Origin: an uncultured Acidimicrobiales bacterium
Lineage (GTDB): Bacteria; Actinomycetota; Acidimicrobiia; Acidimicrobiales; CADCSY01
Assembly: GCA_902805555.1 (NCBI GenBank)
Contig: CADCSY010000035.1
Coordinates: 1-64,000, forward strand
Length of the DNA: 64,000 bases
Reading direction: 5' to 3'
Shown: positions 19,917-26,228 of the stretch, in pieces
Position numbering within the stretch: the first letter of the stretch is position 1
Layout of the letters: the number at the start of each line of letters is the position of its first letter
Translations under genes and position numbers: made by a program
Notes under the pieces: model-generated
What the model was told of the DNA's origin: nothing
Seen by the model: the letters and a program-made list of their open reading frames with translations, nothing else
Databases searched by the model: none

Positions 19917-21749
19917 TCAGGTGGGCGCAGGAGCAGCAGCAGGGGTGGCGGCGTCCGAGGGCCTCGGCGGCGTGGCCGGGTCCGAGCGGGAGAGGAGGGC
20001 GACGACGCCGTACAGGCCGGCGACGAGCACGGCTGCACCGGCCACGCCCACGCCGACCCTGGTCCCGACCAGGGCGCCGAGGAACCCTGCTGCCACGGCG
20101 CCGACCAGGTAGGTGAGGTCGAGCACGGCCTCGGCTGCGCCGAAGACACGACCGCGCAGGTGGTCGGGGGTGCGTTGCTGGAGGAGCGACTCGTACGCCA
20201 CCGACCCGAGGGCGTTGGCCGAGCCTGCGACCAGCCACAGGGCGGCCACCGGCGCCAGGAGGGCGAGCCACGAGGCGCTGAGGATGCAGACGGCGAGGAC
20301 GGTGACGCTCGCCACCAGGACCTTCTCGAGCGACCACCGCCTGCCGGCGGAGGCGCCGACGGCGGATCCCAGCACCATGCCGAGGCCCCACAGGCTGGCG
20401 AGGGCCCCGATGGCGCCGGCGCTCCCGCCCAGCGCGTCCACGACGAACCGCGGCTCGACGGGCGCGCGGAGCGCAGCGCCGAGGACCACGAACGCCATCA
20501 GCACGAGCAGGCCGTGGAGCGGTGGGCGCCGGGAGATGTGGCGCAGCCCGGCGGTCGCGGCGACGAACCAGCCGTCGCCGTTGCCGCCGGCGTGCTGCGC
20601 GCCCGGCACGTGGCGCCGCCGGATGCGGGCGACGAGGGTCGCCGACAGCAGGAACGAGACCGTGTTGAGGAGGAACGCCGGCCGGGCCCCCCAGGTGGAC
20701 ACCATGCCGGCGCCGATCACGGGCCCCAGCGACACGGCCACGTTGAACGCAGCGGCCACGTACCCGTTGGCGACGACGCACTCCTCGTCGCGCACCAGGT
20801 TCGGGATCGAGGCCATGGTCGCGGGGCGGACCAGCGCCCCCAGGCCCCCGAGGATGCCGCCCACCAGGACCAGGTGCGCGACGCCCGGCTCCTGGGGGAC
20901 GAGCAGGGTGCACACGGTGGCGGCCTGCGCCACGTTGACGAGCGTGAGCAACCGGACGCGGTCGACGCGGTCCACCACCGAGGTGCCGACGACGCCCACG
21001 ACGGACGACGCCAGCATCTGCACGGCGATCAGCACGGCGAACACCGTCGGGGAGGCCCCCTGCAGCGCCAGCACCGCGATCACGGCGAGGGAGTAGGTCC
21101 AGTCGCCGATGTCGGAGGAGGCGCCCGCCAGCCACAGCCTCCGGAAGTCGGCGTTGTCCCGGAGGAGCGCCAGGCGACCAGCCGACGGTGCCGCCGTGTC
21201 GTCGACGAGGCGTCGTGAGCGGCCTGGGGGGCGCGACCCGGACACCCGGTGGACGAGCAGTGCCCCCCCGACCAGCAGGATCACGTCGCCCACGCTGAAC
21301 ACGTTGGCCAGGGGCCATGAGGCCGGCACCGCGAAGACGTCGCCCAGGAACGAGAGCCGGGGGGACTCGACCAGGGCGGAGTTGGCGAAGTCGGCCCCGG
21401 TCCCCGACTGCCCGGCGAGGGACAGCGCCTCGGCCGATGCGGGCATCACCCCCTTGTTGGCGACGATCACCACGAAGTTCGACGCACCACCGAGCGCGGC
21501 GAGCCACAGCCAGGGAAGCCGTCGGTTGGCCCAGACGAACGCGCCCGCCATGACGTACGACGCCAGGTGGGCAGCGCCGGTGACCTCGCGCGGCACGTCG
21601 ATGGCGAGCTGCGTGATCACGGCCTGCACCACGGTGGCCCCGAGCAGCAGGGGCGTCCCCCGGAGCTCGACCGTCGCCAGGCGGGTGAGGTGGCCACCGA
21701 GGAGCGGCACGGCGGCCACGACGAGGAGGAAGGCGACGAGGAGGATCAC
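19917..21749 (-). CDS. DUF5317-like N-terminal membrane domain fused to MFS transporter
   Basis: N-term VQAVITQLAIDVPREVTGAAHLASYVMAGAFVWANRRLPWLWLAALGGASNFVVIVANKGVMPAS; C-term LLRDNADFRRLWLAGASSDIGDWTYSLAVIAV MFS. Confidence 0.85.
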   Translation of the reverse strand: MILLVAFLLVVAAVPLLGGHLTRLATVELRGTPLLLGATVVQAVITQLAIDVPREVTGAAHLASYVMAGAFVWANRRLPWLWLAALGGASNFVVIVANKGVMPASAEALSLAGQSGTGADFANSALVESPRLSFLGDVFAVPASWPLANVFSVGDVILLVGGALLVHRVSGSRPPGRSRRLVDDTAAPSAGRLALLRDNADFRRLWLAGASSDIGDWTYSLAVIAVLALQGASPTVFAVLIAVQMLASSVVGVVGTSVVDRVDRVRLLTLVNVAQAATVCTLLVPQEPGVAHLVLVGGILGGLGALVRPATMASIPNLVRDEECVVANGYVAAAFNVAVSLGPVIGAGMVSTWGARPAFLLNTVSFLLSATLVARIRRRHVPGAQHAGGNGDGWFVAATAGLRHISRRPPLHGLLVLMAFVVLGAALRAPVEPRFVVDALGGSAGAIGALASLWGLGMVLGSAVGASAGRRWSLEKVLVASVTVLAVCILSASWLALLAPVAALWLVAGSANALGSVAYESLLQQRTPDHLRGRVFGAAEAVLDLTYLVGAVAAGFLGALVGTRVGVGVAGAAVLVAGLYGVVALLSRSDPATPPRPSDAATPAAAPAPT

Positions 21750-23875
21750 CCGTCATCCGCCTGCGCGTCGGGCTTCCACACCCCGCACGGCAGCGCCTGC
21801 ACCCACGCCGTCATCTCGGCTGCGGGCAGGGGACGGGCGATGAGGTAGCCCTGGCCGTACCCGCAGCCGAGCGCCTTGAGCTCGTCCCAGGCGTCGACGG
21901 TCTCGATCCCCTCGGCCACGGTCACGACGCCCAGGTTCCGGGCGAGGTCGATGATCGCCTGCGCGATCGCCCGGTCCGGGGGGTTGTGGGACATGTCGGT
22001 GATGAACGACTTGTCGATCTTCACGGAGTCGACGGTGAGATCCCTGAGGTGCGCCAGCGACGAGTAGCCGGTCCCGAAGTCGTCGACGGCGATCCGGACG
22101 CCCAGCGCCCGCAGCTCGCCGAGCACGGTGGTGGACCGGACGGGGTCAGCCGTCACCGTGTTCTCGGTGATCTCGATCTCGAGGGTCCCCGGTGAGACGC
22201 CGGCCTCGGCCAGGAGCCCGGCCACCGTCGTCGGGAAGTGGAGGTCGTGGAGGTTGCGGGTCGACGCGTTGACCGCCATGTCGAGGCGGATGCCGAGTCG
22301 CTCCCACCTCGCGCTCTGGGTCAGGGCCACTCGCAGGACGTGCTCGGTGAAGCGGTGGATCAGCTCGGTGTTCTCGGCGAAGGGCATGAAGCGCGCGGGG
22401 GGGATGAGTCCGAGCCTGGGGTGGATCCAGCGGACGAGCCCCTCGCAGCCGGCGAGGCGGCCGGTGGCGAGGTCGAGCTTCGGCTGGTAGTAGAGCGTGA
22501 GCTGCCCGGTCTCGATCGCCGAGCCCAGCTCTGCGAGCAGGTCCCACCGGTTGTTGCGGCGCTCGTCCTTGGCCGCCTCGTAGGTGGCGATGTTGGTCAG
22601 CTCCGACTTCGCCGCGTACACGGCGTGGTCGGCGTTGCGCAGCAGGGCCTCGGGGTCGTCGCCGTGCTCCGGGTAGACGACGATGCCGAAGCTGGCGGCC
22701 ACCGCCACGGGCACACCGCCGATGAGGCACGGCTCGAGCAGCGACGCCCGCAGCCGGTCGACGAGGGCGGCGGTGCCCGGGCCGGCCCCCGACCCGGTGA
22801 CCAGGACGGCGAAGTCGTCACCGCCGATGCGAGCCACCAGGTCGGAGGTGCGCTTGGCCGCCTGCAGGCGGTCGGCCACCTCCTGGAGGCAGCGGTCCCC
22901 CACGTGGTGGCCGAGGTGGTCGTTGATCGCCGTGAAGCGGTCGAGGTCGACGAGCACCACCGCCAGCTCCTGGCCGCGCTCACCGGCGGCCCGGCACGCC
23001 GCCGCCGCCTGCTCGAGGAAGAGCCGCTGGTTCGGGAGGCCGGTGAGGGCGTCGTGGGTGATCTCGTGCTGGCGGTCCAGCGCCAGCTCGACGCTCCGGT
23101 AGACGGCCCAGGTGGTGAGCACCAGGAGCGGGACGAAGGTGAGGCTCCTCTGGGCCACCACCACGAACACCGGAGCCAGGGCCAGCAGCATGGCGTCCGT
23201 GGCCAGGTTGAGGGCGACGCCCTGGCGGATCATCGGCCAGGGCGGACGGTTCTGGACGAGGGCCAGGACCGCCGACGTCAGCACGCTGTTGAGGACCAGC
23301 ACAGCCGCCGCCGTCAGGAGGAAGGCGACGAACAGGAGGATGCCGGGATGGTCGTCGAACAACGCCGTGCGCTGGCCGGTGATGCCGAGGATCACGCTTC
23401 CGAAGCCGAGGGACAGGCTGTAGTTCGCCGCGTTGAAGAGGCCCCGGACCACGGGCTTGCGGTGCAGCGCGTCGCTGAGGAGGCACGCGCAGGCGACGCC
23501 CAGGAGGGCGCTGCCGGGTGGTGCCACGAGGAGCAGGGCCAAGGCGAAGGTCCACGAGGCGGTGACCTCACCGCCCTCGTCCCGCCGCAGCCAGGCCATG
23601 GGCCTCGCCTCGGCGAAGGCGAACAGGACGAGGAACAGCCAGAACAGGTCGGGGCGGGGACCCGTCGGCTCGTCCCACCCGCTCAGCCAGACCGTCGTCA
23701 AGACGACGAGGGCGCCGGCCGCGACCACCATCCCCACGTACAGGTTCAGCGCGTGGTTGGCTGGAGCAATCGTGGAAGCACCCGCCAGCGGAACCGTCTC
23801 CCCCGCCCGGCGGGGGACGTCAGGGTCGCGGTCGAGCACGACCTGCGCCCTCGGGCCCGATGTTGCTCGGACCAC
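21746..23875 (-). CDS. Multi-TM GGDEF/EAL-domain c-di-GMP signalling protein
   Basis: THDALTGLPNQRLF...ARIGGDDFAVLV; GCEGLVRWIHP, EITENTV, VDDFGTGYSSLAHLRDLTVDSVKIDKSFI, VAEGIET; stop overlaps downstream start (ATGA). Confidence 0.95.
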   Translation of the reverse strand: MVRATSGPRAQVVLDRDPDVPRRAGETVPLAGASTIAPANHALNLYVGMVVAAGALVVLTTVWLSGWDEPTGPRPDLFWLFLVLFAFAEARPMAWLRRDEGGEVTASWTFALALLLVAPPGSALLGVACACLLSDALHRKPVVRGLFNAANYSLSLGFGSVILGITGQRTALFDDHPGILLFVAFLLTAAAVLVLNSVLTSAVLALVQNRPPWPMIRQGVALNLATDAMLLALAPVFVVVAQRSLTFVPLLVLTTWAVYRSVELALDRQHEITHDALTGLPNQRLFLEQAAAACRAAGERGQELAVVLVDLDRFTAINDHLGHHVGDRCLQEVADRLQAAKRTSDLVARIGGDDFAVLVTGSGAGPGTAALVDRLRASLLEPCLIGGVPVAVAASFGIVVYPEHGDDPEALLRNADHAVYAAKSELTNIATYEAAKDERRNNRWDLLAELGSAIETGQLTLYYQPKLDLATGRLAGCEGLVRWIHPRLGLIPPARFMPFAENTELIHRFTEHVLRVALTQSARWERLGIRLDMAVNASTRNLHDLHFPTTVAGLLAEAGVSPGTLEIEITENTVTADPVRSTTVLGELRALGVRIAVDDFGTGYSSLAHLRDLTVDSVKIDKSFITDMSHNPPDRAIAQAIIDLARNLGVVTVAEGIETVDAWDELKALGCGYGQGYLIARPLPAAEMTAWVQALPCGVWKPDAQADDG

Positions 23876-23916
23876 GCTGGTTCGCCGGCAGGCGCTTCAC
23901 GGAGTGCGACCTGCGG

Positions 23917-24009
23917 CTACCACTTCTTCGGCGCACCCAGGGCTGCGATCGTCGCCAGCAGGATGGTGACCCGGGTGGCCGTCTTGCCGTAGACCAGGCG
24001 GTTCTTCAT
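23917..24009 (-). CDS. Putative 30-aa cationic/hydrophobic peptide
   Basis: MKNRLVYGKTATRVTILLATIAALGAPKKW with TAGGAG Shine-Dalgarno at 24017-24022 (minus strand); 41 nt upstream of the GGDEF/EAL ORF. Confidence 0.6.
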   Translation of the reverse strand: MKNRLVYGKTATRVTILLATIAALGAPKKW

Positions 24010-24031
24010 GGTGGGACTCCTACGTCTCATG

Positions 24032-24120
24032 GCCGGTGGACCCCGGCGCTGTGCTCGTTCTACGGCTGGAAGCACCCCGTACTTGAGCACAGATCGGGGG
24101 GCCGCGCCCCTTTGTGGGGT
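24032..24120 (-). ncRNA. Structured 5' leader (candidate cis-regulatory RNA) of the small peptide gene
   Basis: Three hairpins in RNA sense: CCCC-ACAAA-GGGG; CTGTGCTC-AAG-TACGG-(11 nt)-CCGTA-GAAC-GAGCACAG; GCCGG-GGTCCA-CCGGC. Confidence 0.45.
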
Positions 24121-24371: not shown

Positions 24372-24824
24372 TCAGCCCCCGGTGCTGCGACGGACCGCCA
24401 AGCGCACCACGACGCCGTCGCCGGCGGCGGTCGTGTAGGCGACCTCGTCCACGAGGGCGCGGATGAGCTGGAGGCTCCAACCCTGCTCAGCGGCTTCCCC
24501 GAGGTCGTCGCCTTCACGGGGCGTCGGGGCAGGTCGCGGCCGGGGGCCGCTGTCCTCGACGTGGACCTCGAGGACGTCACCGGCCAGCACGCAGCGCAGG
24601 ACCACCCGCTGGTCGGCCCCGTCGGCGTCGTGGGCCTCGACTGCGTTGGTGCACGCTTCGGAGACAGCGAGGCGCAGGTCCTCGAGCTGGTCGTCGTCGA
24701 TGCCGTCGACGGTGCTCGACACCGACGCCACCACCACCCGTGCGACGCCGACGAAAGCGGGCAGCGCCGGGATCTCCAAGCGGACGAGCTCCGTCGAGGG
24801 TGTGGCGCCCGCAGTCGCGCTCAC
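24372..24824 (-). CDS. RsbW-like anti-sigma regulatory factor (GHKL ATPase)
   Basis: LEDLRLAVSEACTNAVEAHDADGADQRVVLRC N-box; LQLIRALVDEV. Confidence 0.8.
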   Translation of the reverse strand: MSATAGATPSTELVRLEIPALPAFVGVARVVVASVSSTVDGIDDDQLEDLRLAVSEACTNAVEAHDADGADQRVVLRCVLAGDVLEVHVEDSGPRPRPAPTPREGDDLGEAAEQGWSLQLIRALVDEVAYTTAAGDGVVVRLAVRRSTGG

Positions 24825-25071
24825 CCCGAGCCGTCCACCGGCCGCCCGACCGTGGTGGCGGGGACGGCCCCATGAGCCCGCTCGATGATCCGGCTCGGCC
24901 CGGGAACGGCCCTCCCGGCCCGGCCCGACCCGGCCCAACGCTTCGCCACGCCTCGTCCTCCCGTGCTGCCCCCGGCGGGCGGCGACAACCTATCCCGGGT
25001 GGGGGAACCGCCAACCGGGGTGCAGAACCTCGGGTGTTAGGTTCCCACGCCTCGGCGCCGAGGCTCGATGC

Positions 25072-25476
25072 ATGGGAGGCACACGCGTGATCGAGGTCCA
25101 CGGCGAGCAGGTGCGGCTCACGCTGCCGACGACGCCCCAGCTGCTGCGGGTCGCCCGCCTCACCGCCGCCGGCCTGGCCGGCCGCCTCGGCTTCAGCTTC
25201 GACGAGATCGAGGACGTGAAGATCGCCGTGGACGAGCTGTGCTTCGCACTCGTCGGCGCTCGCGGGCGGCCGGGGAGCCTCTCGCTGCTCTACACCCTCG
25301 ACCTCGGGCGGCTCGTCATCGAGGGCACTGCGACGTACGAGGGCGCCCCGCCGGAGGTGGCTCCCACGGAGCTGTCGTCACAGATCCTGGCGGCTGTCGT
25401 CGACGAGCACGAGCTCTCCACCGACGGGGGTGGGCTTCGCTTCCGCCTTCTCAAGCGGCGGACGGAGGGGGGGTGA
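25072..25476 (+). CDS. RsbW-like anti-sigma factor, degenerate ATP-binding motifs
   Basis: FDEIEDVKIAVDELCFALVGARG; stop overlaps sigma factor ATG. Confidence 0.75.
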   Translation: MGGTRVIEVHGEQVRLTLPTTPQLLRVARLTAAGLAGRLGFSFDEIEDVKIAVDELCFALVGARGRPGSLSLLYTLDLGRLVIEGTATYEGAPPEVAPTELSSQILAAVVDEHELSTDGGGLRFRLLKRRTEGG

Positions 25477-26228
25477 TGGCGTTGGACCGGGCCGACAAGA
25501 AGGCCCTCATGATCGTGTTCAACGACTACGCCACGACCCGCGACAGCGCTCTGCGGGACCAGCTGATCGAGGCCCACATCGGCCTGGCCGAGTACCTGGC
25601 CCGGAGGTTCGCCAACCGGGGGGAGCCGCTGGACGACCTCGTGCAGGTCGCCTCCCTCGGCCTCGTGAAGGCGGTCGAGCGCTTCGATCCGGCCCGAGGC
25701 CTCGAGTTCACGACGTTCGCGACGCCCACGATCGTCGGCGAGCTCAAGCGCCACTTCCGAGACAAGGGGTGGGCGGTGCGGGTGCCGCGGCGGGTGCAGG
25801 AGCTGCACCTGCGAATCACCCGGGTCATCGACGACCTCTCGAACGAGCTCGGTCGCTCTCCCAACGTCGACGAGATCGCACTGCGGGCCGGCACCACGGA
25901 GGACGAGGTCATCGAGGCGATCGACGCCGGCTCGGCCTACCGGTCGACCTCGCTCGACGCCGGCCGCAGCGACGACGACGAGAGCCCGGGGTTGCTGGGC
26001 CAGCTCGGTGACCTGGATCCCGAGCTCGCCCGCTCGGAGCTGCGCACGACGCTCGGTCCACTGATCGCGGCGCTCCCCGAGCGCGAGCAGGTGATGCTCT
26101 ACCTGCGCTTCTACGAGGGCCTCACACAGTCGGAGATCGCCAAGCGCCTCGGCATCAGCCAGATGCACGTGTCGCGCCTGCTGGCCCGGAGCCTGCAGCA
26201 GCTCCGCGAGCTCGGGGATCCGCAGTGA
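25476..26228 (+). CDS. SigB/SigF/SigG-type RNA polymerase sigma factor
   Basis: EYLARRFANRGEPLDDLVQVASLGLVKAVERFDPARGLEFTTFATPTIVGELKRHFRDKGWAVRVPRRVQEL; SEIAKRLGISQMHVSRLLARSLQQLR. Confidence 0.96.
   Translation: MALDRADKKALMIVFNDYATTRDSALRDQLIEAHIGLAEYLARRFANRGEPLDDLVQVASLGLVKAVERFDPARGLEFTTFATPTIVGELKRHFRDKGWAVRVPRRVQELHLRITRVIDDLSNELGRSPNVDEIALRAGTTEDEVIEAIDAGSAYRSTSLDAGRSDDDESPGLLGQLGDLDPELARSELRTTLGPLIAALPEREQVMLYLRFYEGLTQSEIAKRLGISQMHVSRLLARSLQQLRELGDPQ

Follow-up and report, generated by a model that had tools for sequence, protein, structure and literature searches.

A short open reading frame (ORF) of 30 amino acids on a 64,000-nucleotide stretch of DNA from an uncultured Acidimicrobiales bacterium (positions 1 to 64,000 of contig CADCSY010000035.1, assembly GCA_902805555.1; hereafter the window) lies directly upstream of genes for a polytopic membrane sensor with GGDEF and EAL domains and for a fusion of DUF5317 with a transporter of the major facilitator superfamily (MFS). 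Comparison of sequences confirms that this ORF is real and belongs to a broadly distributed family of tiny membrane peptides that annotation has overlooked; ORFs of this size fall below the usual annotation length. The common layout, in which a short ORF directly precedes the gene for a polytopic sensor and DUF5317 is usually close by, was found at about 60 loci, a count that takes in some divergent members whose homology was judged by length, position and composition. The interpretation that we favour, with a probability of roughly 0.5, is that the ORF encodes a member of a family of membrane-inserting peptides that act as the displayed or exported signal of a MASE9-related sensor domain resembling the S-components of energy-coupling factor (ECF) transporters, with DUF5317 as a processing or co-receptor partner.

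With the peptide as query, a match at E <= 0.001 was obtained among the nearest 20 genomes in the window's own genome alone, and a relaxed single-query search of 397 genomes of the phylum gave mostly chance matches. Two of these matches, L008 and L005 (the latter read on the reverse strand), have the same start, length and tail (L numbers denote loci, G and C numbers genomes and contigs). L008/L055 precede a GGDEF-EAL membrane protein and adjoin a divergent DUF5317-MFS fusion, and the neighbours were therefore searched in place of the peptide. All nine DUF5317 loci of the order in which the same sensor stands beside DUF5317 (L055 and L090 among them) bear a short ORF with a Shine-Dalgarno (SD) site upstream of the sensor gene. 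The sensor domain was also searched over 347 genomes of the phylum, and 40 of the best new stretches were inspected. Many of these genomes are draft assemblies, in which an absent neighbour may reflect a contig end. The pattern GAP[RK]KW-stop was rejected as a family finder, being not enriched over the control and giving mostly chance matches.

Members of the family have 23-37 residues, an SD site (aggaggtga-like in many homologues), a cationic start, a hydrophobic middle and a short tail that mostly reads [G/A]-A-[G/P/x]-x-K-W. Among 47 peptides the A of the GA motif is invariant (47/47), and G, K and W occupy their columns in 42/47, 41/46 and 32/47, respectively. The peptides matched no Pfam or NCBIfam model, 26 of them having been tested for autoinducer models. 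Six pairs of related loci were compared, and of their 86 nucleotide differences 49 fall at codon position 3 (p = 6e-6), a figure rendered somewhat favourable by the choice of the pairs as related peptides, and the 45 nt upstream of the ORF are much less alike in most of the pairs. The preliminary description of this DNA had staked its case for the small ORF on conservation with synonymous bias and on co-occurrence with sensor and DUF5317 neighbours; both were found, the latter as described below.

Tandem arrays of 2 to about 7 peptides, mostly with separate SD sites, occur at several loci (L223-L227, L271, L273). At L223 (G179:C142, 2748-5050) the array comprises about seven peptides, which fall mainly into two types (..GAGFKNN and ..GARFKNH), together with a pair of DUF5317 genes and a single sensor-GGDEF-EAL gene, and at L271 and L273 two near-identical peptides of 23-26 aa, which end in ..STVRW and have no GA motif, precede a MASE9-HD-GYP gene. 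Modules within one genome differ in tail, and the tail found with the closest sensor of a different genome is identical or almost so (PRKW in L055/L103, DRQW in L088/L089, ARKWGR in L138/L143). This pattern would fit insulated channels; common descent alone would give the same pattern. The window's genome (G000) itself carries a second peptide-sensor-DUF5317 module, L090 on contig C104, with the tail GAGFKWG.

Linkage of the peptide to the sensor and DUF5317

A fixed rule (24-40 aa, an SD site, hydrophobicity, the tail motif and a position within 420 nt of a sensor gene, with DUF5317 counted within 4 kb) identified a peptide at 25 of 28 sensor genes with DUF5317 and at 4 of 24 without it (Fisher p = 1.3e-7, which is indicative because the rule was set after the first peptides were known and related loci were counted separately). 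The background for the same rule was 42 of 4000 random windows (1%). Two of the three misses, L093 and L167, have a peptide further upstream, and the third, L166, is the other sensor of a tandem pair. With the tail motif dropped and the physico-chemical limits loosened, a second rule was satisfied at 30 of 69 sensor genes, compared with 1.5% of random windows.

A search with a peptide profile that took no account of context gave a consistent picture: every place found at E < 1e-5 lies upstream of an independently found sensor gene, although the profile was built from many of these peptides, so that the strongest matches are partly expected and the independent part consists of the new loci L222-L230 and L233. 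Among the weaker matches that were examined, most adjoin DUF5317 or a sensor; L231 adjoins neither. Two tandem peptides just above E 1e-5 (L221; G047:C673, 2635-2816) stand on a 3.9 kb contig without a sensor or DUF5317 gene. In a strict scan, the DUF5317 genes of the order that have no sensor mostly had no such ORF, and a wider profile revealed divergent peptides at a few of these sensor-less genes (L104, L105 and L106, and more weakly L100, L121 and L122). A transporter as a constant part of the module was not supported: among the loci examined, 9 have DUF5317 joined to an MFS domain.

Unlisted members of the family were also located on plasmids of two named species. In Euzebya pacifica DY32-46, on plasmid pEDY32-46I (NZ_CP031166.1), the ORF MSPRTRKALMNLAALVAVILATGAPQKWG (at about 24923-24834, complement) precedes the gene for WP_114594418, a sensor-GGDEF-EAL protein, whose end overlaps the gene for WP_114594417, a DUF5317-EAL fusion; the ORF is unlisted in the gene table (PLSDB, where the table is incomplete). 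On a plasmid of Subdoligranulum variabile (OY725879.1), from the Clostridia, MKKILFALASLCSLVLASGAFFCVR is followed by a membrane HD-GYP gene and then by DUF5317. The latter case is single and divergent and provides weaker evidence.

The sensor domain, its outputs and DUF5317

The same type of sensor, with the same type of peptide, is fused to GGDEF-EAL, to HisKA/HATPase or to HD-GYP, so the peptide tracks the sensor domain and not the output domain. The proposed association of a precursor-like peptide with a polytopic cyclic di-GMP (c-di-GMP) enzyme and DUF5317 holds as to linkage, and its outputs, extending to histidine kinases and HD-GYP, are wider than the GGDEF-EAL form first described. 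Six of ten aligned sensor domains match MASE9 (PF20972; best E 3.4e-8); the protein from the window is not one of them, and there is no MASE9 match by Pfam in the window's genome. Twenty further stretches were chosen by a MASE9 match and not by the peptide, and in about 12 of them an HD-GYP sensor gene is preceded by such an ORF. Several of these showed no DUF5317 in the stretch retrieved, so that DUF5317 is a frequent, not an obligatory, neighbour. Sequence searches of solved structures with the sensor domain gave no match. Its AlphaFold model (pLDDT 82.5) has as its best matches in the Protein Data Bank (PDB) the ECF S-components RibU and FolT (Foldseek probability 0.99-1.00, TM to 0.70 by target length). 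In the literature searched, nothing was found on MASE9 as a bacterial domain, with no described ligand or peptide partner, and searches on peptides with diguanylate cyclases and on ECF-S sensors gave nothing relevant.

DUF5317 (PF17248) is a family of unknown function that is unmentioned in the literature searched. Of 14 control genomes, those of Thermotoga maritima and Thermus composti, and no others, contain DUF5317, and the same holds for MASE9. The domain in the window scores 93.5 bits against the Pfam model (gathering cut-off 25; E 1.7e-26). Its AlphaFold model has a pLDDT of 91.3 and no significant PDB match in Foldseek, and sequence searches of solved structures also gave none. The conserved residues N91, N98, D137, S152 and D155 are predicted, by our own positive-inside reading and not by a topology tool, to face the extracytoplasmic side, where the peptide tail would also lie. 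An LspA-like aspartyl peptidase, prompted by D-x17-D and N-x-G motifs, was considered and rejected (hhalign probability 0.8%, no significant Foldseek match in the PDB). At L234 (4950-7490, on the Euzebya pacifica plasmid) DUF5317 is fused to a degenerate GGDEF domain and an EAL domain, a fusion that suggests that DUF5317 may itself serve as an input module.

The module in the window and its upstream region

The features of the module in the window are given in Table 1. The stop codon of the 30-aa ORF is separated by 41 nt from the GTG start of the 709-aa ORF. Where the two large genes overlap, the sequence is GTGA, with a GTG start at 21749, and not ATGA as previously read. The GGDEF motif of the window protein reads GGDDF in the translation, departing from the GG(D/E)EF criterion for an active diguanylate cyclase, and its EAL motifs appear intact; the main or net activity of this enzyme may therefore be that of a phosphodiesterase. 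The MFS part of the fusion is similar to exporters such as EntS, solely below the NCBIfam cut-offs. Further upstream are an anti-sigma-like HATPase_c_2 gene just before the module (24372-24938, minus strand), a second, weak HATPase_c_2 gene (25072-25476, plus strand) and a sigma factor gene that we read as SigB/SigF-like (about 25475-26228, plus strand).

Table 1. Coordinates of the peptide, sensor and DUF5317 module in the window
Feature	Position	Strand	Basis or remark
Sigma-28 (FliA/WhiG)-like promoter candidate, TCAAGT-N14-GCCGTAG	24060..24086	-	77 nt upstream of peptide start; 10/13 consensus matches
SD-like taggag shortly before the ATG of the peptide ORF	24017..24022	-	Sequence inspection
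30-aa peptide ORF, MKNRLVYGKTATRVTILLATIAALGAPKKW	23917..24009	-	K/R-rich start, hydrophobic middle, GAPKKW tail
709-aa polytopic sensor, GGDEF (GGDDF) + EAL	21746..23875	-	ORF translation, Pfam
Membrane sensor domain (SENS; MASE9-related, ECF S-component-like model)	23069..23749	-	Profile match span, AF2, Foldseek
GGDEF domain (motif GGDDF), residues 273-426	22598..23059	-	Pfam
EAL domain, residues 449-682	21830..22531	-	Pfam
610-aa DUF5317-MFS fusion	19917..21749	-	Pfam DUF5317 + MFS_1; overlaps sensor gene by GTGA
DUF5317 domain	21252..21671	-	Pfam; invariant N91, N98, D137, S152, D155
MFS (MFS_1/MFS_3) part of fusion	19989..21137	-	Pfam

Many peptide genes are preceded, at about 70-90 nt, by the motif TCAAGT-N13/14-GCCGATA, which we take to resemble the sigma-28 consensus. 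At a threshold of at least 10/13 it precedes 17 of 33 peptide genes, compared with about 9% of background windows, and at 11/13 or better 8 of 33, compared with 0.7%. The site in the window, taken alone, is only suggestive; judged by the motif, the leader stretch probably holds a sigma-28-type promoter. FliA/WhiG scored above the curated cut-off in 23 of the 25 genomes searched. One of the 23 is the window's genome, where the FliA/WhiG gene and the L090 module share contig C104 (15101-15775 and about 41.5-43.1 kb). In eight genomes, exact sigma-28 sites at other positions gave no clear indication of a regulon, many being inside ORFs. The leader had been described as rich in hairpins, a feature that did not withstand analysis: 29 of 200 shuffled sequences fold as well (z = -1.06), the predicted 5' untranslated region has z = -0.65, and a search for a riboswitch in the leader gave no Rfam match. 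The palindrome GACTAGTC is restricted in distribution, occurring upstream of the five related, divergent loci L055, L088, L089, L091 and L103; there the palindrome-like site, [GA]ACTAG[TC]C, is situated 97-146 nt before the peptide start and is a possible shared operator.

Signal, subunit and other explanations

In the signal reading, the cationic N-terminus of the peptide would stay inside the cell while the hydrophobic stretch inserts into the membrane, so that the C-terminal tail (GAPKKW in the window) would be exposed at the outer surface or set free. DUF5317, with its invariant polar residues predicted on the face of the tail, would process or release the peptide or take part in its reception, with export as a possible role of the fused MFS. 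The sensor would then receive the tail in an outward-facing pocket, and this would switch its output, GGDEF(GGDDF)-EAL in the window and a histidine kinase or HD-GYP elsewhere. Several observations weigh against this scheme. Sensors without a peptide exist, and some MASE9-HD-GYP loci have a peptide and no DUF5317 in the 6-7 kb examined. A strain-specific pheromone would be expected to have a less conserved tail core, the DUF5317-EAL fusion of Euzebya suits a co-receptor and a processing enzyme equally, and the Foldseek E-values of the ECF S-component matches, at 0.09 or more, are not significant.

The main rival is that the peptide is a single-pass micro-protein that is not exported and that inhibits the sensor or belongs to it as a constitutive subunit, in principle like MgrB, with DUF5317 as another subunit and no cell-cell signal. 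The constant place beside the sensor gene, the short length, the single hydrophobic segment and the strong conservation of K and W would all be expected of such a subunit, as would the fusion of DUF5317 to output domains. Arrays of up to about seven different copies and the recurrent fusion of DUF5317 to MFS are more easily explained by an exported or dosed signal; the evidence does not separate the two decisively, and these two features tilt it toward the signal, so that we regard the subunit as possible and rather unlikely. A small antimicrobial or toxin, similar to leaderless bacteriocins or type I toxins, with the sensor in a regulatory role and DUF5317/MFS providing immunity or export, is improbable: the peptides are cationic and hydrophobic, often have a Trp near the C-terminus and are multi-copy in some loci, but the parts tested had no match in PADLOC, the peptide matched no Pfam or NCBIfam family, sensors with c-di-GMP outputs would be unusual partners, and a conserved tail motif would be unexpected. 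Still less probable is a regulatory leader peptide acting on the sensor gene by attenuation or translational coupling. The same strand, the place upstream of the sensor in single-copy loci and the single ORF with a strong SD site would suit it, yet conservation is at the amino-acid and not the codon level, multi-copy arrays occur, the distance to the sensor gene varies, and the leader of the window has no significant RNA fold or Rfam match. The lack of the peptide in the nearest genomes and the unenriched GAP[RK]KW-stop pattern would be consistent with a chance ORF without function, an explanation that is contradicted by conservation across about 60 loci and can hardly be credited.

Returning to the peptide as signal, comparison with known systems suggests that the family is built from parts unrelated to known peptide-receptor systems and would nevertheless work like peptide-receptor signalling. 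It resembles Agr (AgrD, AgrB, AgrC) in the short cationic and hydrophobic precursor beside a polytopic receptor and a membrane protein able to handle the precursor, and in the histidine kinase output at several loci. Unlike Agr, the family has no conserved Cys/Ser column for a ring, the window peptide containing neither residue, the receptor domain and the partner match other families, and GGDEF-EAL and HD-GYP outputs occur; with no AgrB seen and no family match either, the earlier comparison to AgrD-type precursors did not extend to membership. MASE9-HD-GYP genes, too, are often preceded by the same kind of small ORF. ECF S-components (RibU, FolT, ThiT) have the closest predicted fold, but the sensor differs from them in being fused to signalling domains, and it has no sequence similarity to solved proteins. 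In small-protein regulators of sensor kinases of the MgrB-PhoQ type, a single-segment micro-protein is paired with a membrane sensor; the likeness is one of layout, and unlike those regulators the peptide is encoded beside its sensor, sometimes in tandem arrays, together with DUF5317.

A wider generalization, offered tentatively and at slightly less than even odds, is that throughout Actinomycetota, and perhaps in Clostridia, MASE9-related sensors act as receptors for peptides, each sensor having a peptide of its own, 23-37 aa long and encoded in the genome, that is often handled by DUF5317. They would form a modular class unrelated to Agr/Com parts, with GGDEF-EAL, histidine-kinase or HD-GYP outputs. 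Peptide signalling in Actinobacteria is little explored, and quorum sensing has been counted in only 25 of 342 genera (PMC4748050). The ligands of most membrane-embedded sensor domains of c-di-GMP enzymes are an open question. The tails are short enough to synthesize, and the idea is therefore directly testable. If the pairing is functional, it would provide one family of sensor domains with a candidate ligand encoded next door, and it would give a shared context to DUF5317 and MASE9, two families without known function.

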